Shown one piece after another: positions 8,853 through 22,249 of a stretch of 22,386 nucleotides of DNA (within the stretch, counting starts at the first letter, position 1; the number at the start of each line of letters is the position of its first letter). Source of the stretch: a virus; the IMG/VR virus record IMGVR_UViG_3300042397_000222, positions 1 through 22,386 of that record; one strand, given 5' to 3'. Both the position numbers and the translations under genes were made by a program. The notes beneath the pieces are model-generated. The model did not search any database. It was not told where the DNA came from and saw only the letters and a program-made list of their open reading frames with translations.

Positions 8853-9023
8853 ATGCAGATCACCAAGGAATTCTTGGAGTCTGAGATTCGTAGCCTAGAG
8901 ACTGAGGCAAATAAGGCAAACGCCTTTTTAATTCAGGCTCAGGCCACGATCCAAGCGTACAAGATGCTCATAAACAGGCTAGAAGCGCCAGAACCGGAGC
9001 AACAAAATGACGATGCAATTTGA
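8853..9023 (+). CDS. Short coiled-coil protein
   Basis: The frame is open from an ATG at 8799, but that would overlap the previous gene by 53 bases. The ATG at 8853, one base after that stop, gives a compact 56-residue protein. It is almost entirely helical: ITKEFLESEIRSLETEANK, then AFLIQAQATIQAYKMLINRL, with heptad-like hydrophobics, and an acidic tail. No strong ribosome binding site is seen, so coupling to the previous gene is likely. Function is unknown; size and heptads suit a small assembly or adaptor peptide. Its end overlaps the next gene by 17 bases. Confidence 0.65.
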   Translation: MQITKEFLESEIRSLETEANKANAFLIQAQATIQAYKMLINRLEAPEPEQQNDDAI

Positions 9024-9492
9024 CGTCAAGTCGTATCACAACACTGAATCTGGCGTTGCGTTTGCCAGCCGCACCCGTTTAAAAGGGGTGTTGATTTCCC
9101 CGTCTACGTCTGTAACGTTTAACACAGCAATTTGTGACAACGTAACTTCAACAGGTACGTATGATGTCCCCGGCACCACTACTTGTACAGTAACAATCGC
9201 CAATCATGGGTTGTCAAACGGAGATAGAGTTTTTTTAAACTTTACCAGTGGCACGACACAAGACAACACTTATACGGTTGCAAACGTAGCAACAAACACT
9301 TTTACCGTGACTGTGGCATCAGCTACTACCAGCGGTAATGTGACCATGTACGCAAAAATTCTGGCGGAGTTTGATTGCTCTAGCGGCACAGCGTTTTACA
9401 CGTTGATTCCCGGCGAAGGCATTTTGGCTTCTAACGGCATCTATGTTGGGCTTCCCAGTGCAGATGTTACGTCTACCATTTTCTACGGGTAA
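9007..9492 (+). CDS. Tandem paralogue 1, beta-rich structural protein
   Basis: This 161-residue protein is clearly paralogous to the next one. Both begin MTMQ-F/Y-DVKSYH and end with a G-I-F/Y-VGL ... FYG segment. The middle contains a module VTIANHGLSNGDRVFLNF ... NTYTVANVATNTFTVT. This 'HGL-x-x-GD ... YTV ... TFTVT' pattern is common in phage structural proteins and resembles what search tools often report as a small beta-barrel (FCCH-like) domain; that identification is from memory. It overlaps the end of the coiled-coil gene, and a GGAG lies about 7 bases upstream of the ATG. A virion role, perhaps in head or tail decoration, is inferred from context. Confidence 0.78.
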   Translation: MTMQFDVKSYHNTESGVAFASRTRLKGVLISPSTSVTFNTAICDNVTSTGTYDVPGTTTCTVTIANHGLSNGDRVFLNFTSGTTQDNTYTVANVATNTFTVTVASATTSGNVTMYAKILAEFDCSSGTAFYTLIPGEGILASNGIYVGLPSADVTSTIFYG

Positions 9493-9498
9493 TACGCA

Positions 9499-9987
9499 AT
9501 GACGATGCAGTATGACGTCAAGTCTTACCATGCCAGCGCATCTGGCAATGCGACGACTTATGCTGTCCGTTTAAAAGGCGTGACGGTAACGACGGCTACT
9601 GTGTCTGCAAGGAACATGGCTGTTGCCGACCCCGCAGTTTCAAAATCAGGTACTTGGAGTCGTACTGGGACGTTGGTCACTGTTACGATTAACGACAATG
9701 GCTTGGCAAATGGGCAGCGAGTGTTTTTGGATGTTGCTGCTGGAACCACAATGCGTGACGGCATGTATACGGTATCGAACGTTACGACCAACACGTTTAC
9801 GGTTACTTCAGTGACATCAGGCACGGCTTCTGGTACGGTGACAATGTACACAAACATCTATGTTGAGCTGGACACATTCAATACAGTTGGACTGCCTGTA
9901 CCTGTGCCCGGCGAAGGTATTTATTGCCCCAACGGCATTTTTGTTGGGCTCGGTTCAAGCGTAACAGCAACGGTTTTCTATGGCTAA
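9499..9987 (+). CDS. Tandem paralogue 2, beta-rich structural protein
   Basis: This 162-residue duplicate of the preceding gene begins six bases after its stop. It keeps the same start (MTMQYDVKSYH), the module VTINDNGLANGQRVFLDV ... YTVSNVTTNTFTVT, and the same end (PGEGIYCPNGIFVGLG ... FYG). The segment at about residues 30-50 differs most. The His of the 'HGL' motif in copy 1 is Asn here. No strong ribosome binding site is visible between the copies, so coupled translation is likely. The retained ends and diverged middle suggest both are used, perhaps as related virion subunits or a heteromer. Confidence 0.78.
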   Translation: MTMQYDVKSYHASASGNATTYAVRLKGVTVTTATVSARNMAVADPAVSKSGTWSRTGTLVTVTINDNGLANGQRVFLDVAAGTTMRDGMYTVSNVTTNTFTVTSVTSGTASGTVTMYTNIYVELDTFNTVGLPVPVPGEGIYCPNGIFVGLGSSVTATVFYG

Positions 9988-10303
9988 ATCACCAGCATGG
10001 CAACGCAAAGAGGGGAAGAGCGAGAGCGGAGGCTTGAACGCCAAAGGTCGGGCTTCCTACAACGCAGCGAATCCCGGGAAGCCGGGGTTGAAAGCCCCCC
10101 AACCAAAGGGAGGCAAACGCCGCGACTCTTTCTGCGCCCGTATGAAAGGTATGAAAGCGAAGCTTACGAGCGCCGAGACCGCACGCGATCCGGATTCGAG
10201 GATTAACAAAAGCCTTCGGGCTTGGAACTGCGCTGATGGTGGATACGTAACACAGGCTGACGGCTGCGCCACCCAAGGCAAAACGAGGGGTAGGTTTGTA
10301 TGA
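9980..10303 (+). CDS. Small basic conserved phage protein carrying the shared C-terminal motif
   Basis: This 107-residue protein overlaps the previous gene by 8 bases. The N-terminal 75 residues (AWQRKEGKSESGGLNAKGR; NPGKPGLKAPQPKGGKRRD; FCARMKGMKAKL) belong to a small basic family that I recall from many phages, probably the one catalogued as DUF6321; this needs a search. Arg/Lys and Gly richness suggests nucleic-acid contact. The C-terminus (DGGYVTQADGCATQGKTRG) matches the ends of the proteins at 11018 and 11728, although the N-terminal parts of the three are unrelated. The role is unknown; a virion or DNA-associated protein is plausible. Confidence 0.8.
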   Translation: MAKSPAWQRKEGKSESGGLNAKGRASYNAANPGKPGLKAPQPKGGKRRDSFCARMKGMKAKLTSAETARDPDSRINKSLRAWNCADGGYVTQADGCATQGKTRGRFV

Positions 10304-10500
10304 ACCAACAAGATCAAGAAACTGTTAAGCACATGATTGACGGTGCTTCTATCCTCACCGTCATAGGAACTCTTGTGGAATTCTTACCTGCCGTATCTGC
10401 GGTTCTCAGTATTATTTGGGTCGCTATTCGTATCTACGAAACTGACACTGTGCAGAAACTTGTTAACCGCAAGAAAGACGAAGATGCCAGCAACGAGTGA
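10300..10500 (+). CDS. Holin-like small membrane protein
   Basis: This 66-residue protein overlaps the preceding stop (ATGA), with GAGGGG at 10285-10290 upstream. After a charged N-terminus there is a hydrophobic stretch at about residues 16-45 (ASILTVIGTLVEFLPAV, then SAVLSIIWVAIRIY), long enough for one long or two short membrane segments broken at FLP. A Lys/Asp/Glu-rich tail follows. Size, charge pattern and phage context fit a holin, which makes the inner-membrane lesion that times lysis. No endolysin is seen nearby in the window, so the role is inferred from topology alone. It is unusual that it sits inside a run of structural-type genes. Confidence 0.6.
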   Translation: MNQQDQETVKHMIDGASILTVIGTLVEFLPAVSAVLSIIWVAIRIYETDTVQKLVNRKKDEDASNE

Positions 10501-11002
10501 AAAACAAAAGAAATTCATGGATGCTGTGGCCCATAACCCAGCATTTGCAAAGAAAGTTAAAGTACCTAAAGCCGTAGGCAAGGACTTCAGCGAAGCAAGT
10601 AAGGGTATGAAATTCGGGAAGGACAGATCGGTTTCAACCCGGGCTGACCGTCAAGTGGTAAACAGGCCAAAAACCAATCAAGGTAAGGCTGAACTTTTTA
10701 AAAAGGGTGGCGAGATGAAAGAATCTAAAGCAATGGTCAAAAAAGAAGTGTCCTTCATGAAATCCAAAGGCGCACCCAAGTCTATGGTTAAACATGAAAT
10801 GAAGGAAGCTGGTATGAAGAAAATGGCAGGGGGCGGTGCTATCACCAAGGCCAAGATGGGCGCAGTCCCTTCTGGCGGCAACAAAGGTAAAGGCGAGCAC
10901 GCTATTCAAAAGAGCGGTATCTCCAAAGGTACTACGGTCAAAATGTCTGGCTCTAAACCTCTGGGCATGAAAAACGGCGGCATGTCAAAAGGCAAGTGCT
11001 GA
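10484..11002 (+). CDS. Lysine-rich conserved phage protein, unknown function
   Basis: The frame is open from 10373, but the ATG at 10484 is preferred since it limits overlap with the holin-like gene to 17 bases and gives the start MPATSEKQKKFMDAVAHNP (172 aa). The N-terminal 45 residues (KQKKFMDAVAHNPAFAKKV; VGKDFSEASKGMKFG) are a pattern I recall in many aquatic phages. A second segment ESKAMVKKEVSFMKSKGAP looks helical and strongly basic. The remainder is Lys/Gly/Met-rich low complexity with several GG steps (FKKGGEM, MAGGGAI, KNGGMSKGKC at the end). Such proteins could bind DNA or an acidic surface in the virion. There are no catalytic residues and no membrane segment. Confidence 0.72.
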   Translation: MPATSEKQKKFMDAVAHNPAFAKKVKVPKAVGKDFSEASKGMKFGKDRSVSTRADRQVVNRPKTNQGKAELFKKGGEMKESKAMVKKEVSFMKSKGAPKSMVKHEMKEAGMKKMAGGGAITKAKMGAVPSGGNKGKGEHAIQKSGISKGTTVKMSGSKPLGMKNGGMSKGKC

Positions 11003-11017
11003 TTTAAGGAGCCGATC

Positions 11018-11719
11018 ATGGCAAAGAAAAATTTGGGTAGATTAGCGGGTCTTGCTGCTCTTGCGGGCGCAGCGTACATGGCGTCCAAGGGCAAGGACAA
11101 AGATGACGCGGGCGACCAAAAGACTAGTTCTTACACCGGCGACACTAAAAAAGTCGAAGATAAGGAAGAGCCACGTCGTCAAATTACTGACTACATGAAA
11201 AAGTCTGACGGCGACAGTAAATCCATTACTGAGGCCGATGTTGTCATGCCTGAAAAGGCAGCGCCTGCGGCCCCTAAAAAACCCACGCCTCCTAGCGCTT
11301 CTACTATCGCCAAGACCGACCCCCGTATCAATTCAACTCGTCGAGATCTAGAAGCTGGGATGAGTCGCGGTATGCCCGCGAAGCAAAAACCTGTTATTGA
11401 GGGAGTCAAGCCTGCTGAAGATATGAAGAACTACAAGTCCCGTGCCGCTTCGCCAGCAGCTCCTGCCCCTGCTGCAAAGCCCAAAGACCCCGCCCCTACA
11501 TTCACAACTACAAGCGCACCTAAATCTGAGCCTTACAAACACAAAATGCCTATATCAAGTTTTTTTGAAGGTATTCGTGAGCGCGGGAACAAAGATTTAG
11601 AGGAGCGTGGCTTAAGGGGTGGTGGTAAGGTCAAGAAGATGGCTTCTGGCGGTATGACTGCTTCCAAACGCGCCGATGGCATTGCCTCTCGCGGTAAAAC
11701 CAAATGCAAGATGTATTGA
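11018..11719 (+). CDS. Low-complexity protein with N-terminal hydrophobic helix and shared C-terminal motif
   Basis: This 233-residue protein is preceded by AAGGAG at 11006-11011. Residues about 6-24 (LGRLAGLAALAGAAYMASKG) form a hydrophobic or amphipathic helix. The next 170 residues are disordered-looking, Lys/Pro/Ala/Asp-rich, with Ala-Pro stretches. A short ordered piece MPISSFFEGIRERGNKDLEE precedes Gly/Lys-rich residues and the terminal motif GGMTASKRADGIASRGKT ending KCKMY. The ending is shared with the proteins at 9980 and 11728. A virion-internal or ejected protein is one idea, since a hydrophobic helix plus basic disorder is seen in such proteins; nothing in the sequence proves it. 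Confidence 0.7.
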   Translation: MAKKNLGRLAGLAALAGAAYMASKGKDKDDAGDQKTSSYTGDTKKVEDKEEPRRQITDYMKKSDGDSKSITEADVVMPEKAAPAAPKKPTPPSASTIAKTDPRINSTRRDLEAGMSRGMPAKQKPVIEGVKPAEDMKNYKSRAASPAAPAPAAKPKDPAPTFTTTSAPKSEPYKHKMPISSFFEGIRERGNKDLEERGLRGGGKVKKMASGGMTASKRADGIASRGKTKCKMY

Positions 11720-11727
11720 GGTGAATC

Positions 11728-12228
11728 ATGGCAAGAGTCGGAAAAAAACCTACGGACGATCAGCTACTTGAGGGTGGCGGTGGGGGTGGCGGTTTTCGCA
11801 GCATACCCTCTTCGACATTAAACCCTCGTCCTACGGGTAGCCGTTCCGCAAAAGACTACAAAGAAAAAGCTGACAGAGAATCGGAGTTTTCTGGTGAAAT
11901 GAGTTTTGGTTCTCCCCGAGGCAGAAGTTCTGATTCGAGTGACAGAACCCCACGCACAAGTGACGATTACGCCGGAGGTGGCATGACTGAAGACGACAAA
12001 AAAGCAGCAAAGTACCGAGCCGAAGCCAAGACTGGTGGTACTGACGCCCCTGCCCCAAAAGAGGTATTGCAGGAAATGGCAGACAAAAAGGCAGCCGCAA
12101 AAGCTGCTACTGCCCCAACTACCAAGACCACAATGGGTAAGCCCTTCGCCAAGGGTGGCATGACTGCTTCTAGCCGTGCAGACGGCTGTGCTCAGCGCGG
12201 CAAAACTCGCGGGACGATCATCCGATGA
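11728..12228 (+). CDS. Low-complexity Gly/Ser/Lys-rich protein with shared C-terminal motif
   Basis: This 166-residue protein starts after GAGGTG at 11718-11723, which overlaps the previous stop. It has an N-terminal glycine run (seven Gly after DQLLEG), then Ser/Arg-rich disordered sequence, an AGGGMTEDDKKAAKYRAEA helix-like piece, an Ala/Lys-rich segment, and the terminal motif GGMTASSRADGCAQRGKTRG. The terminal motif is similar in DNA as well as protein to the end of the preceding gene, so the pair may share an origin, although the rest does not align by eye. Function is unknown. Its stop overlaps the next start (ATGA). Confidence 0.68.
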   Translation: MARVGKKPTDDQLLEGGGGGGGFRSIPSSTLNPRPTGSRSAKDYKEKADRESEFSGEMSFGSPRGRSSDSSDRTPRTSDDYAGGGMTEDDKKAAKYRAEAKTGGTDAPAPKEVLQEMADKKAAAKAATAPTTKTTMGKPFAKGGMTASSRADGCAQRGKTRGTIIR

Positions 12229-12503
12229 TGGCGAGTCGTGGCATGGGCGCAATCCGAGCATCTAAGATGCCCGGTAGGAAAGTCGTTCGTCGCACCGATA
12301 AACCACAGGATGTAGATATGTATGCAGAAGGTGGCAAAGTAAACGCCGCCGGAAACTACACCAAGCCCGGCCTGCGCAAGCGGATCGTGTCTCAGGTCAA
12401 GGCGGCGGCTACTCATGGTACTGGGGCGGGCCAGTGGTCAGCCCGTAAAGCACAACTTGTTGCCAAGAAGTACAAGGCAGCAGGCGGGGGTTACCGAGAT
12501 TGA
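12225..12503 (+). CDS. Small basic conserved phage protein
   Basis: This 92-residue protein starts at an ATG overlapping the previous stop; a second ATG follows directly at 12228. The first 35 residues are Arg/Met-rich. From MYAEGGKVNAAGNYTKPGLRK onward the sequence (with GTGAGQWSARKAQLVAKKY near the end) has a pattern I recall in many marine and freshwater phages. It is Lys/Arg-rich with a probable pair of short helices and no Cys or membrane segment. The 'AEGG' step resembles the GG steps in the neighbouring proteins. Function is unknown; DNA or virion association is inferred from charge and context. Confidence 0.7.
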   Translation: MMASRGMGAIRASKMPGRKVVRRTDKPQDVDMYAEGGKVNAAGNYTKPGLRKRIVSQVKAAATHGTGAGQWSARKAQLVAKKYKAAGGGYRD

Positions 12504-14260: not shown

Positions 14261-14461
14261 ATGGCAACATACAAAGTACCTAAGAAGGTTCCTACTGTTG
14301 TCGTGGGTGAAGAGCCAGCAAAGACAACTATGCGCAAAGCAAACGTGGCTGTTGCAAACACGCGTAGTCAGGACTATCCCCCTACCAAAACCACTGGTAT
14401 CAAAATCCGTGGCACAGGCGCAGCAACTAAAGGCTTGATGGCCCGGGGCCCAATGGCATGA
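14261..14461 (+). CDS. Very small basic protein ending ARGPMA
   Basis: This 66-residue protein starts one base after the previous stop, with AGAGG at 14248-14252. It has a Lys/Val-rich N-terminus (ATYKVPKKVPTVVVGEEP), an apparently unstructured middle, and a conserved-looking end (GIKIRGTGAATKGLMARGP). I recall the ending in similar small phage proteins. Function is unknown. The stop overlaps the next start (ATGA), so expression is tied to the adaptor gene that follows. Confidence 0.65.
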   Translation: MATYKVPKKVPTVVVGEEPAKTTMRKANVAVANTRSQDYPPTKTTGIKIRGTGAATKGLMARGPMA

Positions 14462-15186
14462 CCTACACCGAGTTGATTGCCGCTATTCAGTCGTACACCG
14501 AGAACACGTTCCCGGCAACGTACCTGTATGACAATTCAACTGTGTCTCCCCAGACGCAGTTGAACACGTTCATTACACAGGCTGAGCAGCGCATCTACAA
14601 CACGGTTCAGTTTCCATCGTTGCGTAAGAACGTGACGGGTATCACATCAAATGGCAACAAGTACTTGTCGTGTCCGGCAGATTTTCTGGCGACGTATTCG
14701 TTGGCCGTTGAGACTGCGGACGGGCAAGAGTTCTTGCTGAACAAGGATGTGAACTTCATCCGTCAGGCGTATCCCAAGGCTACTGACACAGCGACACCCA
14801 AGTACTACGCTCTGTTTGGCCCGACAACCACAAACGACCCCAGCCCCGTCATCACCAATGAGTTGAGCTTCATTCTTGGCCCAACACCTGATGCGGCTTA
14901 CAACGTCGAGCTTCACTATTACTACTATCCCGAGTCCATCACAGTTGCAGCTTCTGGCCAGACTTGGTTGGGCGACAACTTTGATACCGTGCTGCTGTAC
15001 GGCTCATTGGTTGAGGCTTACACGTTCATGAAGGGCGAGCAAGACGTGATTGCTTTGTACGACGGTAAGTACAAAGAAGCTCTTGCATTGGCTCAGCGTT
15101 TGGGTGATGGTCTGGAGCGTAGCGACGCATACCGAAGTGGCCAGTTCAGAGTTCCTCCTCTGGCTCAGAATAACGGAGTGCGTTAA
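14458..15186 (+). CDS. Head-tail adaptor-like protein
   Basis: This 242-residue protein begins with MTYTELIAAIQSYTENTFP, a helix, then QLNTFITQAEQRIYNTVQFP, then a beta-rich middle (NKYLSCPADFLATYSLAVE; YYALFGPT; ELSFILGPTPDAAYNVELHY) and a helical end (LYGSLVEAYTFMKGEQDVI; YKEALALAQRLGD). This helix-beta-helix layout matches a phage adaptor group that I recall from podovirus SU10-type particles; the family name should be checked by profile search. The role would be in linking the portal to the tail. Its start overlaps the preceding stop, and it has no good ribosome binding site of its own, which points to coupling. Confidence 0.72.
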   Translation: MTYTELIAAIQSYTENTFPATYLYDNSTVSPQTQLNTFITQAEQRIYNTVQFPSLRKNVTGITSNGNKYLSCPADFLATYSLAVETADGQEFLLNKDVNFIRQAYPKATDTATPKYYALFGPTTTNDPSPVITNELSFILGPTPDAAYNVELHYYYYPESITVAASGQTWLGDNFDTVLLYGSLVEAYTFMKGEQDVIALYDGKYKEALALAQRLGDGLERSDAYRSGQFRVPPLAQNNGVR

Positions 15187-15608
15187 TGGCGTTTACCGGC
15201 AACTATTCATGCAACACCTTGCGTACCGCGCTGATGAACGGCACGATGAATTTTTCATCTGATGTCTTCAAGCTGGCTCTGTACACAAATGCTGCAACAC
15301 TGGATGAAACGACCACGGGCTACACAGCTACAGGCGAGGCTTCTGGTGGGAATTATGTGGCTACCGGGCAAGTAATTGCCGCCACCGTCTCCACAGCCAC
15401 GACAGCGGCTGGGAGCGTTGTTTATGTCACGTTTGCAGCGCCAGCTTGGACTGGAGTAATCACTGCTCGCGGTGCATTGATATACAACAATACCACTGGG
15501 GATGCAGTCTGCGTTCTGGACTTTGGTAACGACAAAACCTCAACTTCAACTTTCACTGTGACGATGCCTGCTAATACCAGCACATCGGCACTCATTCGGC
15601 TTGTATAA
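15186..15608 (+). CDS. Beta-rich structural (tail) protein
   Basis: This 140-residue protein begins MAFTGNYSCNTLRTALMNG and continues with FKLALYTNAATLDETTTGY, then a Gly/Thr/Ala-rich beta region ending PANTSTSALIRLV. The pattern 'start of a small tail protein that takes an expected value such as F-K-x-A-L-Y-T-x-A-A-T-L' is familiar from phage tail or fibre-base proteins. GGAG at 15175-15178 lies 7 bases before the ATG, and the ATG overlaps the previous stop by one base. No enzyme motif is seen. It probably starts the fibre and tail-tip block. Confidence 0.72.
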   Translation: MAFTGNYSCNTLRTALMNGTMNFSSDVFKLALYTNAATLDETTTGYTATGEASGGNYVATGQVIAATVSTATTAAGSVVYVTFAAPAWTGVITARGALIYNNTTGDAVCVLDFGNDKTSTSTFTVTMPANTSTSALIRLV

Positions 15609-15617
15609 GGAGCGACT

Positions 15618-16193
15618 ATGTTTAACGAAAAAGCAGCATCAACCGACACCGTCAGCGCAGGGCTGGTTGCTCGTACTGGAGCCGACTTTGGCGCTCGTGC
15701 GGGCGGCGTGTTCTATGTCGAGTGTTTTGACAAAGACGGCAACTTGAAGTGGAGTACTTCCAAGCATAACCTTGTGATGAACGAAGGCTTGCAAGACATG
15801 AACACGCAGTACTTCAAGGGCGCAACCTATACCGCCGCACTCTTTCTTGGCTTAGTTACCGGCCCCGGTTCTGGCACAACCTTTGCCGCAGCCGACACCT
15901 TGGCTTCCAAAGCATGGACTGAGTACACCGACTACGCCGGTTCACGCAAGGCTGTGACATTTGGTACGGCTACAACCGCAGACCCGTCTGTCATCAGCAA
16001 CTCTGCCGCGCCTTCTTCCTTCGCCATCTCTGGCGCTGGTGGCGTTATTGCAGGCGCGTTCTTGTGTACTGTGGCCAGTGGCACTTCAGGTGTTTTGTTT
16101 TCAGCCTCTGATTTTCAGTCCCCCGGCGACCGCACCGTTGTGTCTGGCGATACCTTGAATGTGACCTACACGTTCAGCCTCGACGCTGCTTGA
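15618..16193 (+). CDS. Beta-rich structural (tail) protein
   Basis: This 191-residue protein is preceded by AAGGAG at 15607-15612. The N-terminal half includes GGVFYVECFDKDGNLKWST and HNLVMNEGLQDMNTQYFKG, then AALFLGLVTGPGSGTTFAAA, a pattern seen in phage tail or fibre-associated proteins. The C-terminal half (SSFAISGAGGVIAGAFLCTV; GDTLNVTYTFSLDAA) is beta-rich and ends in alternating hydrophobics. No catalytic motif is visible. It likely acts with the preceding protein in the tail tip or fibre base. The exact role is unknown. Confidence 0.72.
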   Translation: MFNEKAASTDTVSAGLVARTGADFGARAGGVFYVECFDKDGNLKWSTSKHNLVMNEGLQDMNTQYFKGATYTAALFLGLVTGPGSGTTFAAADTLASKAWTEYTDYAGSRKAVTFGTATTADPSVISNSAAPSSFAISGAGGVIAGAFLCTVASGTSGVLFSASDFQSPGDRTVVSGDTLNVTYTFSLDAA

Positions 16194-16196
16194 TGA

Positions 16197-17420
16197 GTGT
16201 TTGGAACATCCGCATTTGCTGAAACCCCCTATGCTGCATTGCCAGCAGGGGGGCAAGTGCTTGATAGTTCTATTAGTGAATCGGCAACAGCCGCTGATCT
16301 AGCAGCGGTACTTGCAATATTTCAGTCCGCCCTTGCGGAAACATCGACGGCATCAGAAACTGTACTAGTTGCCCCGTCCACATTTACAACAATAATTGAC
16401 GAGTCTGCGCAGGGTAGCGAAACTGTATCTTCACTACCGATTTACGCCTGCGATATACAAGAAAGTGCGACTGCTGAAGACACGGTATCAACCCTCGCAG
16501 ATTTCTTGGCGGACATCACTGAGACTGCGGTGGCCGTGGATGACACAACAGCACTTGTTGATTTTGGGGTAAATATCCAAGAGCAAGCTGTCGGGGCGGA
16601 TGCGGTAGCTTCCAGCGCAGACTTCCAAGGCAGTATTTTGGAAACCGCCACTGGGGCCGATAGCGTAGCCGTAGCTGCTTCAAATTTCAACGCAGTAATT
16701 GCCGAACAAAGTTCCGGTTCGGAGACGGTTTCCAGTTTGGTTGACTTTGCAGCAGCCCTAGCCGAAGCCGCAACCGCCTCAGATTCCACATCAGCGTTGG
16801 TGGATTTTGCCGCCGCCATAGCCGAAGCTGCAACGGCGAGGGATGTTGCGTCTGCCTTGGTTGACTTTGCAGTGGCCATAACAGAGACTGCGCAGGCTTT
16901 TGACGCGGTAATAGGCGGGCTGGTGTATGTGGCATTTATTTCAGAGGTGGCTCAAGGGCTGGACACGCCGTCTTCAAACGCAGATTTCAATGCCGCAGTA
17001 GCTGAGCTTATTTCTGGTCTGGACACACCCAGCGCAGCCGCCGGGTTTGGTGTTGCGGTTTCTGAGGCTGCGGCTGGCTCCGACAGTACTTTGGTGGCCC
17101 CCTCCACCTTTAATGCCTCCGTCAGCGAAACGGCGCAGGTGTTGGACGCAGTGTTTGCAAGCGCAGCCTTTTTTGTTATTATTACTGAAGGTGCGGTGGC
17201 CGCAGATCAGATCATTGCACGGCTGCTTTGGGAGATCATCAACGATGCGCAAACAGCAGATTGGGGCAACATCAATGCTTCCCAGACAACGACTTGGGCT
17301 ACGATTGGGACAGCCCAGACCAACGGCTGGCAAGACATCAATTCTGCCCAGAATGCTGGTTGGACAGTCATCTACGACGGTCAAACTGACACATGGCAAG
17401 TAATTAAAACGCAGGGTTGA
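16197..17420 (+). CDS. Repeat protein: sixteen 20-21-residue repeats plus a C-terminal 11-residue repeat
   Basis: This 407-residue protein starts with GTG; the ATG at 16193 is in another frame and stops after nine codons. After a short N-terminus (FGTSAFAETPYAALPAGG), residues about 22-344 are sixteen degenerate repeats with the layout E-x5-D/E-x7/8-aromatic-x5. The conserved Glu recurs at 28, 48, 69, 89 and so on to 331, always followed six residues later by Asp or Glu. Residues 345-407 switch to a strict W-x2-I-x3-Q-x3 repeat with Trp at 345, 356, 367, 378, 389 and 400. This looks like a rigid fibre or beta-solenoid joined to a second repeating stalk. It is very acidic and almost free of Lys. 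A tail fibre or appendage shaft is inferred from neighbours. Confidence 0.78.
   Translation: MFGTSAFAETPYAALPAGGQVLDSSISESATAADLAAVLAIFQSALAETSTASETVLVAPSTFTTIIDESAQGSETVSSLPIYACDIQESATAEDTVSTLADFLADITETAVAVDDTTALVDFGVNIQEQAVGADAVASSADFQGSILETATGADSVAVAASNFNAVIAEQSSGSETVSSLVDFAAALAEAATASDSTSALVDFAAAIAEAATARDVASALVDFAVAITETAQAFDAVIGGLVYVAFISEVAQGLDTPSSNADFNAAVAELISGLDTPSAAAGFGVAVSEAAAGSDSTLVAPSTFNASVSETAQVLDAVFASAAFFVIITEGAVAADQIIARLLWEIINDAQTADWGNINASQTTTWATIGTAQTNGWQDINSAQNAGWTVIYDGQTDTWQVIKTQG
16260..17228 (+). repeat. Sixteen tandem coding repeats of 60-63 bases
   Basis: Each unit encodes 20 residues (three encode 21, where APSTF or AASNF replaces a shorter end). Conserved positions are Glu, then Asp/Glu six later, then Phe/Tyr (Trp once) at the unit end. 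At the DNA level only neighbouring units (for example around 16740-16870) are closely alike, so the array is old or under codon-level divergence. Confidence 0.85.
17229..17417 (+). repeat. 33-base coding repeat encoding W-x2-I-x3-Q-x3
   Basis: Six Trp codons are spaced at exactly 11 residues, Ile lies three residues after each Trp, and Gln lies seven after the first five. The last unit is cut by the stop. The unbroken 11-residue period suggests a hendecad-type helical or trimeric stalk. Confidence 0.85.
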
Positions 17421-17424
17421 GCAA

Positions 17425-19431
17425 ATGGCACTCGTAGTCAAAGATAGAGTTCAAGAAAGCACCACTACAACTGGCACTGGAACACTGACTCTTAACGGTG
17501 CGGTTTTTGGTTTTCAAACTTTTGCAATTATTGGCGACGGCAACGTCACATATTACGCAATTACAGACCCGGGTACGGGGAGTTGGGAAGTAGGTGTTGG
17601 CACATACACAGCTTCAGGCACAACGTTAAGCCGCACCACTGTTTTTGAATCCAGCAATTCTGGTAGTTTGGTTAATTTTGCCGCTGGGACAAAGAATGTG
17701 TTTTGTACATACCCGGCGGAAAGGGCGGTGTATTTAGATGCAGCAGGGTCTGCTGTAACTCTTTTAGATATTGGCACACTGGGCGCAAGCACTGCAAACA
17801 TCACAACGGCAAATATCACGTCCGGCACAATCACCACAACTCCGGTCAACAACACCGACATTGTCAACAAAGAATACGCTGACGCCATCGCATCCGGCAT
17901 TCACTTCCATGAAGCTGTAGCTTTAGCAACTACAACAACTCTACCAGCAAACACGTACAACAACGGTACATCCGGGGTAGGGGCAACGCTTACAGGAAAC
18001 GCTAATGGTGCTTTGTCTGTGGACTCAACACTTACTATTGTTGCGGAACGCATACTTGTAAAAAATGAAGCGGCGGGCGCAAATAATGGTGTTTACGTTG
18101 TTACTCAGGTTGGCTCTGCTGGAACACCGTACATACTGACCCGTGCAACTGACTTTGACACCGTTGGAACCGGCGTTGACCAGATTGACGAGGGTGACTT
18201 TTTCTTAGTGACCAGCGGCACTGCTAACGTCAATACCGCTTGGGTGCAGCAGACTGCTCCCCCGATAACGATTGGCACAACAGCGATTGTCTTCCAACAG
18301 TTTTCCGCCCCCATCACCTATACCGCAGGGACAGGGCTGAGTGAGTCCCCGTCCTACACATTCAATATTGCCAACACTGGTACGGCGGGTACGTATGGTT
18401 CAGCATCGTCAGTCCCAGTCTTTATTACCAACGCGCAGGGCCAAGTTACATCGGTCACAAATACAGGTATTGCTATTTCTTCGGCGGCAGTTTCAGGCTT
18501 GGCAGCTTCAGCAACAACGGACACAACTGATGCTTCAAACATTACTTCTGGTACGTTGGGCACTTCACGGTTGTCTGGCAGCTACACGGGCGTTACTGGA
18601 GTCGGTACTCTTACTGCTGGTACTTGGAACGCTACAACTATTGCTGCTGCTCGTGGCGGTACTGGTCAGTCCTCTTACGCTGTGGGAGACATTGTTTACG
18701 CAGATACGACTACGTCTCTGGCCAAGCTCGCGGATGTAGCAGTTGGTAACGCACTGATCTCTGGTGGCGTGGCTGCGGCTCCAAGCTACGGCAAGATTGG
18801 TTTGGCAACGCATGTCAGTGGAACTTTGCCTGTAGCAAATGGCGGAACAGGACAGACTACAGCCTTGATTCCGTCTGGTACTGTAATGATGTTTGTGCAG
18901 ACTGCGGCACCAACTGGTTGGACAAAAAGCACCACACACAACAATAAGGCTCTGCGCGTCGTGTCTGGAACAGCCGCATCTGGCGGTTCAGTAGCATTTA
19001 CCACAGCGTTCGCTTCTCAGGCAGTGTCAGGTTCGATTGGGAGTACAACGGCTACAGGCACTGTTGGAGGCACAGCCCTTACTGAAGCGCAATTACCCTC
19101 GCACACACACACTTTCAGTGGGACAACTTCAAACCCAAGTGTTAGCTTAACGGGCACCTTTGATGCGGGCAAACCTCCGGGTTCCAGCGGCATTTTTGCA
19201 ACACAAATTACCGGCCTCGCTGGCGGTGGTAGCGGGGCACAAGCCAGCGCCACTAGATATTCAATGAACGCCACGCACACCCACACCTATTCCGGTACAA
19301 CGGCAGGAGCAGGTTCGGGTTCGACCCACAGCCACACTTTTACAGGCACAGCGCATGACCACACATTCACGGGCACAGCAATTAACTTGGCTGTGCAGTA
19401 CGTTGATGTCATCATTGCAACCAAGGACTGA
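17425..19431 (+). CDS. Tail fibre protein with His-x-His C-terminal module
   Basis: This 668-residue protein has an N-terminal part (VVKDRVQESTTTTGTGTLTL; FAIIGDGNVTYYAI) typical of phage tail-fibre starts. A second recurrent fibre domain lies at about 145-290 (VNKEYADAIASGIHFHEAV; RILVKNEAAGANNGVYVVT). There follow repeat-like stretches with AARGGTGQSSY and LPVANGGTGQTT, a tail-collar-like segment (PSGTVMMFVQTAAPTGWTK) and a His-rich end: SHTHTFSG, ATHTHTYSG, STHSHTFTG, AHDHTFTG. His-x-His pairs at fibre tips bind metal in known trimeric fibres such as T4 gp12. The ribosome binding site is weak (AGGG about 9 bases away). It is probably the receptor-binding or collar fibre. Confidence 0.87.
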   Translation: MALVVKDRVQESTTTTGTGTLTLNGAVFGFQTFAIIGDGNVTYYAITDPGTGSWEVGVGTYTASGTTLSRTTVFESSNSGSLVNFAAGTKNVFCTYPAERAVYLDAAGSAVTLLDIGTLGASTANITTANITSGTITTTPVNNTDIVNKEYADAIASGIHFHEAVALATTTTLPANTYNNGTSGVGATLTGNANGALSVDSTLTIVAERILVKNEAAGANNGVYVVTQVGSAGTPYILTRATDFDTVGTGVDQIDEGDFFLVTSGTANVNTAWVQQTAPPITIGTTAIVFQQFSAPITYTAGTGLSESPSYTFNIANTGTAGTYGSASSVPVFITNAQGQVTSVTNTGIAISSAAVSGLAASATTDTTDASNITSGTLGTSRLSGSYTGVTGVGTLTAGTWNATTIAAARGGTGQSSYAVGDIVYADTTTSLAKLADVAVGNALISGGVAAAPSYGKIGLATHVSGTLPVANGGTGQTTALIPSGTVMMFVQTAAPTGWTKSTTHNNKALRVVSGTAASGGSVAFTTAFASQAVSGSIGSTTATGTVGGTALTEAQLPSHTHTFSGTTSNPSVSLTGTFDAGKPPGSSGIFATQITGLAGGGSGAQASATRYSMNATHTHTYSGTTAGAGSGSTHSHTFTGTAHDHTFTGTAINLAVQYVDVIIATKD

Positions 19432-20797: not shown

Positions 20798-22249
20798 ATG
20801 AGCAGCACATATTCAAACAGCCTTCGGGTTGAACTTGTTGGTTCAGGAGACCAAGCTGGTGCTTGGGGATCGACTACAAACGGCAACTTCTCTAACATTT
20901 TTGATGTTGCAATTGCGGGGTATCAGACTGTTAGCGTCACAAGCGCCAGCCAAGCCTTGACGTATTTAAATGGCCCAACCACAACCGCCAATTTGAACCA
21001 ATCTGTGTACGCCATGTTGCGCTTCACGACAACTACCGGCGCGGCGTTCAACGTCTATGCTCCCCCAGTGTCCAAGCAGTACATCGTGTACAACAACAGC
21101 GGTTACTCGATGACCATTTACAACTCGACTGTGATTGGCAACACTACCGCAGCGGGCACAGGCATTACAGTTACCAACGGCTCCAAGGTCATGGTTTGGT
21201 CTGATGGCACAAACTTTAATGAGTTGCAAGCGTCCAACTTGACAGGAACACTGGCTATTGCCAACGGCGGTACTGGGCAAACCACAGCCAATGCTGCGTT
21301 TAACGCGTTGGCTCCATCCCAAACAAGCGCCAATGGTAAGTACTTAAAGTCCGACGGAACAAACACAAGCTGGGATCAGATTGACATTAGCACCAGCGAC
21401 GTCACAGGTGTTTTGCTCGGCGCAAACGGCGGTACAGGCGTAGCGAATACAGGCCGGACAATTACGCTTGGTGGAAACATTTCTACTGCGGGGGCGCTTA
21501 CAACTTCCGGTGCTTTCGGTGTTACGCTCACTGCAACCGCCCTCACCAATGTAACGCTGCCGACAACCGGCACACTGGCGACTTTGGCTGGTTCGGAAAC
21601 TTTAACTAACAAGACCCTGACCAGCCCAGTGCTGACAGCTCCTGCGCTTGGTACGCCAGCCTCTGGCAACCTCGCCAACTGCACATTCCCCACGCTGAAT
21701 CAAAATACAACTGGAACAGCGGCTGGCCTGTCTTCAACTTTGGCAGTGGCTTCTGGTGGTACAGGTGTAACCACCGCCGCAGCCGTAGCTTCGCTTGTTG
21801 GCAATCTGTTGTTCCCCGTGGGCGCAATTTATACGGCCACTGTCGCTACTAACCCCGGCACACTGCTTGGCTTTGGAACTTGGACAGCGTTTGGTGCTGG
21901 TAGAGTTTTGATTGGTAACGGCGGCGGTTTTTCAGCGGGCGCTACTGGCGGTAGTGCAGACGCCGTTGTTGTAAGCCATACGCACACATACAGTGCTACC
22001 ACCAGCACTGCATCTTTATCTGGCACTTTCGAGGCTAGTAAACCCGCCGCTGCGTCTGGCATTGTGTCTATTGCGGCTACCGGTTTAGCTGGCGGGGCTG
22101 ACGGAGCACAGAGTACTGTGACGCGCTATTCAGTTGATGCGTCGCACTCTCACACAGTGTCGGGCACTACGGCCTCTTCTGGTGTTTCAGGGACAAACGC
22201 AAACTTGCAACCGTACGTTGTTGTGTACATGTGGCAGCGTACTGCCTGA
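20798..22249 (+). CDS. Second tail fibre protein with His-x-His C-terminal module
   Basis: This 483-residue protein starts after AAGGAG at 20784-20789. The N-terminal 150 residues (YSNSLRVELVGSGDQAGAWG; TTANLNQSVYAMLRFTTTT) are a common phage-fibre start that differs from the first fibre. Then come fibre repeats LTGTLAIANGGTGQTTANA and LASGSETLTNKTL-like stretches (LAGSETLTNKTLTSPVLTA). From about residue 350, LLFPVGAIYTATVATNPG and GFGTWTAFGAGRVLIG are tail-collar-like. The end (residues about 393-465) resembles the end of the first fibre, with SHTHTYSAT, a GLAGGADGAQSTVTRYSV segment and SHSHTVSGTT. This is probably a second adhesin. Both fibres may share a chaperone or metal-binding tip. 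Confidence 0.87.
   Translation: MSSTYSNSLRVELVGSGDQAGAWGSTTNGNFSNIFDVAIAGYQTVSVTSASQALTYLNGPTTTANLNQSVYAMLRFTTTTGAAFNVYAPPVSKQYIVYNNSGYSMTIYNSTVIGNTTAAGTGITVTNGSKVMVWSDGTNFNELQASNLTGTLAIANGGTGQTTANAAFNALAPSQTSANGKYLKSDGTNTSWDQIDISTSDVTGVLLGANGGTGVANTGRTITLGGNISTAGALTTSGAFGVTLTATALTNVTLPTTGTLATLAGSETLTNKTLTSPVLTAPALGTPASGNLANCTFPTLNQNTTGTAAGLSSTLAVASGGTGVTTAAAVASLVGNLLFPVGAIYTATVATNPGTLLGFGTWTAFGAGRVLIGNGGGFSAGATGGSADAVVVSHTHTYSATTSTASLSGTFEASKPAAASGIVSIAATGLAGGADGAQSTVTRYSVDASHSHTVSGTTASSGVSGTNANLQPYVVVYMWQRTA

Follow-up and report, generated by a model that had tools for sequence, protein, structure and literature searches.

What is the role of a phage protein that consists largely of 16 short acidic repeats and is encoded beside a tail-fibre gene? 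The question is raised by a reading frame in a stretch of viral DNA of 22,386 nucleotides (IMG/VR record IMGVR_UViG_3300042397_000222, positions 1 to 22,386), here called the window. Its genes mark the window as the half of an uncultured tailed phage genome that codes for structural proteins. The gene order is terminase, portal, head protein, SU10-type adaptor, two small genes, the repeat protein (REP), a tail fibre and a second fibre or collar protein. The terminase is closest (49–56%) to those of phage DSL-LC04 from Dishui Lake, the pelagiphages HTVC023P and HTVC027P and a few others. We read REP as a length-variable and probably cation-stabilised β-solenoid stalk that belongs to the tail-fibre complex of this phage, a freshwater virus of lake bacteria, and we see about as much chance of this reading being right as wrong. 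The genes around REP are as follows.

14458..15186, + strand, SU10-type head-to-tail adaptor (Pfam SU10_adaptor, 2.5e-22)
15186..15608, + strand, PHROG 644 gene, a conserved upstream neighbour of REP (PHROGs)
15618..16193, + strand, PHROG 8123 gene, directly upstream of REP and accompanying the core with the Glu/Asp (E/D) pair (PHROGs)
17425..19431, + strand, tail-fibre gene after REP (PHROG tail fibre, E 6e-23, residues 137–307)
20798..22249, + strand, second fibre/collar protein with Gp10_C (Pfam, 7e-19); its N-terminal type follows REP in a few relatives

Elsewhere in the window, the adjacent genes 9007–9492 and 9499–9987 encode similar small proteins starting with MTMQ[FY]DVKSYH and look like a tandem duplication. 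Positions 9980–12503 hold a run of small basic, glycine-rich ORFs, several with tails resembling GGMTASxRADGxAxRGKTxG.

REP consists of three parts: an N-terminal peptide of 21 residues, the repeats (residues 22–344) and a C-terminal array of Trp-marked units of 11 residues (Trp-11; residues 345–407).

16197..17420, + strand, REP ORF, 407 amino acids, GTG start (translated ORF)
16197..16259, + strand, N-terminal peptide MFGTSAFAETPYAALPAGGQV, with aromatics as residues 2, 7 and 12; kept in relatives with other cores
16260..17228, + strand, array of 16 units F-x-A-x-I-x-E-x-A-x-(A/G)-x-D-x-V-x-A-x-A-x, exactly residues 22–344
16320..16382, + strand, unit 2, 21 residues, the additional residue lying in ..LVAPST ahead of the aromatic; position conserved among relatives
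16623..16685, + strand, unit 7, 21 residues, marking an additional block of five units compared with 11-unit relatives
17046..17108, + strand, unit 14, 21 residues; relatives also have such a unit third from the end
17229..17417, + strand, Trp-11 array, W-x2-I-x3-Q-x3 six times over, each unit exactly 11 residues long and the last one shortened (Trp345 to Trp400)

The reading frame and its GTG start are the same in the relatives L001–L057. An antisense ORF at 16442–16879 mirrors the repeats and is not counted as a gene.

The sequence-only reading had described 16 units of 20 or 21 residues at 16260–17228, with a ladder of Glu residues, an Asp or Glu six residues further on and an aromatic residue closing each unit. 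Recomputed on the translation, all of this is exact; the N-terminal peptide and the six-Trp array had been left out. The conserved Glu is found at residues 28, 48, 69, 89, 109, 129, 149, 170, 190, 210, 230, 250, 270, 290, 311 and 331. Six residues on, the side chain is acidic in 16 of 16 units, being Asp in 13 and Glu in three (residues 54, 75 and 176). The closing aromatics are equally complete (Phe42, Phe63, Tyr83, Phe103, Phe123, Phe143, Phe164, Phe184, Phe204, Phe224, Tyr244, Phe264, Phe284, Phe305, Phe325 and Trp345), and the spacing is 20 throughout except for 21 in units 2, 7 and 14. The periodicity is far above chance: at a lag of 20, residues 18–345 give 101 identities compared with 33.9 ± 5.1 in composition shuffles, and the maximum at any lag from 2 to 61 across 2000 shuffles is 61. 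A recent tandem duplication is rejected as the origin of the array because the DNA identity between units averages 42–48% whatever the lag; only units 9 and 10 reach 70%.

The units follow a strict alternation. In a profile of 461 distinct units, a set that was chosen by the motif, hydrophobic or small residues predominate at positions 1, 3, 5, 9, 11, 15, 17 and 19, the even positions are mostly polar (Ser/Thr), and Glu7 and Asp13 share the odd, hydrophobic side. A MAFFT alignment without motif selection (545 cells) has an acidic residue in 96.9% at position 7 and 96.5% at position 13, and a basic residue in none. Of the 323 residues in the window array itself, 45 are acidic and only two are basic.

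Both ends of the protein are shared more widely than its core. The N-terminal spacing [FWYL]-x4-[FWYL]-x4-[FWYL] occurs in 80 of 80 proteins compared with 5% in shuffles, a count that is not independent because some of the loci were obtained by the motif itself. A similar Trp-11 array closes proteins with unrelated cores, the ends of the window protein and of L060 aligning with E 6e-17, and its copy number is 3 to 12 in most relatives. The Trp-11 units of the window have the 3-4-4 spacing of hendecads, yet are rich in Asn, Thr, Ser, Gly and Pro. In one relative (L057, 5001–5759) the reading frame seems to change close to where the Trp-11 array begins, through a frameshift or an assembly error.

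The genes next to REP are conserved as well. A gene that opens with the N-terminal domain of the window's tail fibre (MALVxxDRVxETTTTTGTG..GFQSF..IGxGNxTYY) starts 0–12 nucleotides past the REP homologue in 72 of 80 distinct proteins. For the other eight, the second fibre type is next in four, one is cut off and three have neither, so that 72 homologues, and four more ahead of the second fibre type, lie in a tail-fibre cassette. From this gene order we infer that REP belongs to the tail-fibre complex, presumably as a stalk. The PHROG 8123 gene at 15618 precedes E/D-core genes in 61 of 66 cases and genes with an ALTGVxASGxVGTV-type core in none of 12, a pairing that may be explained by shared descent.

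A search of IMG/VR with the window protein alone gives 80 loci, and a profile search gives 269 stretches that encode REP relatives, 80 of which were kept. No match to the window protein was found in an isolate-phage collection of 50,697 records. Among curated families the best Pfam hit has E 0.72, the best PHROG hit E 0.094 and NCBIfam gives none, while searches of the PDB by sequence and profile return only chance matches to helical designs and coat proteins. Thus no characterised repeat family, which would have spoken against the sequence-only reading, is confidently matched, whether in the PDB by sequence or in Pfam, PHROGs or NCBIfam. Longer repeat relatives do give Pfam and PHROG matches (MukB hinge, pentapeptide, BsuBI and others), but these are short, biased and mutually inconsistent and were rejected as repeat artefacts. 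No report of the REP motifs or of stalks of this kind was found in a literature search. The sole relative among genome contigs lies on a 3 kb contig (L159, RHAS01000139.1) binned in an actinobacterial MAG; this contig is probably viral because its gene order is identical to that of the phage, and the binning is either a hint to the host or a binning error.

Among named phages, comparable repeat proteins, all annotated 'hypothetical protein', are gp68 of the cultured pelagiphage HTVC023P (QGZ17697.1), gp68 of the cultured pelagiphage HTVC027P (QGZ17849.1) and WJZ48131.1 of phage DSL-LC04. Those of HTVC027P and DSL-LC04 are located like REP, past the adaptor and the PHROG 644 homologue (gp66 and gp67, the latter the homologue of the 15186 gene, in HTVC027P), and gp68 of HTVC023P sits ahead of a tail protein gene. 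The proteins of HTVC023P and DSL-LC04 end in Trp-11 units as REP does, and the N-terminus of HTVC023P gp68 is similar (LLGITAISQSPIASLGG versus MFGTSAFAETPYAAL). In contrast, all three have other repeat cores without E-x5-D. The pelagiphage gp68 proteins are probable rather than proven members of the REP group, since the similarity over the full length is weak.

The length of the array varies by whole units. The window and its nearest relatives (L001–L010) have 16 units, most others have 11 and L039 (206 residues) has six; these steps of five rest on two events only. More distant relatives have 8, 13, 14, 16, 23 and about 24 units. The extremes are L202 (81 residues), with one unit, and L068 (1020 residues), where 27 strict units in the second half are preceded by about 19 Trp-marked units of 20 residues, for about 45 in total. 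The length differences between close relatives are those expected for complete units: 407 − 306 = 101 residues (five units), 306 − 284 = 22 (two Trp units) and 284 − 273 = 11. In most close relatives the second and the third-last unit have 21 residues, and the additional 21-residue unit of the window at unit 7 is expected from an inserted block of five. A comparison of repeat numbers in relatives, from one to about 45, therefore supports well the earlier suggestion of a length-variable shaft.

The core can also be replaced outright. Loci such as L059, L060, L065, L069–L074, L077, L079, L080 and L161–L174 encode units resembling ALTGVxASGxVGTV between an N-terminal peptide of the REP kind and a Trp-11 end, at the same genome location. 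A third core type (ITPxVGSLTLTGVAPTVV) is present in a protein of 721 residues (L075, 2952–5117) that has the Trp-11 end and lies directly ahead of the fibre gene. At the DNA level, the window gene and its best relative are about 90% identical over the N-terminal peptide and over the Trp-11 array, and also in units 13, 14 and 16; identity is 82% in unit 15, while units 1–12 give just short or weaker matches. In the 11-unit form, entropy falls from 1.6–1.8 bits in units 1–8 to 0.9–1.3 bits in units 9–11. All segments of all pairs tested have dN < dS, and no positive selection on REP was seen, dS being saturated in the middle of the array in distant pairs. That the flanks of some such pairs are not saturated points to an exchange of core segments between lineages rather than to positive selection. 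Since the presumed rod is lengthened, shortened and replaced in whole units in related viruses, it looks like an interchangeable spacer within the attachment apparatus.

A single-sequence AlphaFold prediction of the window protein is helical with a mean pLDDT of 40 and was rejected as worthless. Using a relative of 306 residues together with 50 sequences, AlphaFold predicts two strands for each unit, 20 in all along the array, with a pLDDT of about 50–66 in the array, a mean pLDDT of 50 and a pTM of 0.39, and neither end resolved. Foldseek finds no match to this model below E 1e-3 in the PDB or BFVD (best PDB match E 0.26). Ranked by VIA-align within Foldseek's own list, where solenoids score high through their common arrangement, the top neighbour is region IV of the Marinomonas primoryensis adhesin MpAFP (PDB entry 3p4g; Z 16.8, 2.5 Å over 195 residues, spanning the whole array), followed by SufB (Z 13.1), other β-helices and the RTX domain 6sus (Z 12.1). 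Since the Foldseek match is not significant, the likeness of the model to 3p4g is one of fold and not of kinship. Mutual information within and between units, as an indicator of parallel or antiparallel pairing, was uninformative because differences between subfamilies dominate. With two strands per unit in the monomer model, Glu7 and Asp13 on the hydrophobic face and a Ca2+-bound β-helix as top neighbour, the array is likely to be a β-solenoid, a prediction with moderate support, and the proposal of stacked repeats holds to the same degree. The further proposal of a new fibre fold is not supported, because the model looks like known β-helices. The novelty lies in the sequence family and in the modular way it is built: REP is a protein of an ordinary kind, a repeat protein of a phage fibre cassette, that forms a new family of unusually clean modular design.

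In the model that we propose, each 20-residue unit would form one coil. Strand 1 would cover approximately positions 2–9, a tight turn positions 10–12 and strand 2 positions 13–19, and the aromatic residue at position 1 would close a second turn. The odd positions would point inwards, so that the rows of Glu7 and Asp13 would be buried. The two residues would flank the turn next to the small Ala9 and Ala/Gly11, each coil contributing one pair to two parallel acidic rows inside one edge of the rod. Since there is almost no Lys or Arg in REP, these rows would most likely hold divalent cations, with Ca2+ as the first choice, and the small side chains at positions 9 and 11 would leave space for the ion. 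Such cation binding, which the sequence-only reading had raised for calcium, is plausible, and loading would render folding cation-dependent outside the cell. The N-terminal peptide on one side and the conserved last units with the Trp-11 array on the other are candidate docking ends, one of which would receive the N-terminal domain of the fibre that the downstream gene encodes. Between them, the core would act as a spacer that changes by whole coils and can be exchanged for another repeat. At a presumed 4.8 Å per coil, the 16-unit core would measure about 77 Å and the 11-unit core 53 Å.

Two known systems are instructive here. The Ca2+-dependent β-helical antifreeze domain MpAFP region IV is built, like the predicted REP array, as a solenoid from short units in tandem; it has 13 units of 19 residues (PMC3492233), compared with 11–16 of 20 in REP and its close relatives. 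No sequence similarity was found between the two; REP has another motif than the 19-residue RTX-like repeat with its outward Thr/Asx ice-binding array, has no Gly-rich Ca2+ loop, carries two acidic rows per coil and is encoded beside a phage tail fibre, whereas MpAFP region IV is part of a giant bacterial adhesin. In RTX β-rolls (nonapeptide XUXGGXGXD) an acidic residue likewise recurs one coil apart, with Ca2+ as the likely staple: the ion bridges Asp residues about 4.8 Å apart, and without it carboxylate repulsion works against folding (PMC6891781). Two acidic rows with only two basic residues in 323 would pose the same electrostatic problem for REP. The unit, however, is 20 or 21 residues and not 9 or 18, the turn is around T-(A/G)-S rather than GGxGxD, the type I secretion context is lacking, and the unit profile shows neither the GGxG turn of GGxGxDxUx repeats nor a Pfam or NCBIfam match.

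Phage tail fibres are mostly trimers, and on this general ground REP could instead be a trimeric β-rod whose strands intertwine and whose acidic rows lie where the chains meet, hydrated or protonated and not loaded with metal. The fibres of phages 7-7-1 (PDB entry 9rkv, Z 10.5) and Kp7 (Z 9.8) are among the structural neighbours, and the alternation of odd and even positions suits any β-rod. A regular array of two strands per unit nevertheless appears already in the monomer model, and burying an E/D pair in every unit with neither a basic partner nor a cation would be costly, which makes the trimer rather unlikely in our view. The middle of the array, its most diverged part, raises the alternative of a receptor-facing adhesin or decoration whose variable units directly bind glycans of the host or the environment, ice or particles. 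The outward positions of the array are rich in Ser and Thr, a feature shared with several solenoid adhesins and ice-binding proteins, but the units have no loops or insertions able to make a binding pocket and dN < dS leaves no sign of diversifying selection; we regard this function as improbable. The adhesin role suggested by the sequence-only reading finds no support either, gene order placing REP with the tail-fibre gene. Against the solenoid stalk stand the moderate quality of the model (mean pLDDT 50, pTM 0.39) and the lack of a glycine-rich RTX loop.

The C-terminal part brings in a different comparison, as some phage tape measure proteins contain Trp-marked repeats of 11 residues in varying number (PMC3271669), which is exactly the period seen here. 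REP might then be an assembly ruler outside the fibre, with its repeat number setting a length and the Trp-11 array as a tape-measure-like segment. A 12-copy Trp-11 array gives weak tblastn matches to tape measures, but at E 2e-3 at best, and the Trp-11 units, rich in Asn, Thr, Ser, Gly and Pro, differ from helical tape repeats; kinship was rejected on these grounds. Composition, length and genome position differ too, with no convincing similarity: only 3–12 C-terminal units carry the Trp, compared with a long tape protein that sets tail length and has Trp or Phe at 11-residue intervals through much of its sequence, the gene lies in the SU10-type adaptor cassette beside fibre genes, members are as short as 81 residues and the genes searched gave no tape measure match. 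A ruler is thus very improbable. We give equally little credence to a largely disordered, low-complexity linker without a fold. The simple composition (Ala, Ser, Thr, Val, Asp and Glu) and modest pLDDT would suit it, whereas the phase-locked alternation, the conservation by position of Phe1, Glu7, Asp13 and Ala17 over hundreds of units and purifying selection would not.

Taken more broadly, the solenoid stalk may exemplify a widespread, uncharacterised class of phage stalks with fixed docking ends and an interchangeable core of β-repeats. One such core would be a buried Glu/Asp cation ladder that needs one divalent ion per coil, the repeats setting both the length of the stalk and its dependence on calcium. 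We put this forward tentatively, as somewhat less probable than its opposite. The phages concerned are abundant in lakes and the ocean, and their attachment machinery is hardly covered by current family libraries. Such a stalk, variable in length by complete coils and with a core exchangeable between constant ends, would offer a simple illustration of how a virus attachment organ evolves by modules. It would also provide a testable rule, that length follows unit number, for which the REP relatives form a natural series of rods from one to about 45 coils. If the acidic ladder binds calcium, the attachment or stability of these phages would be tied to the calcium of fresh water.
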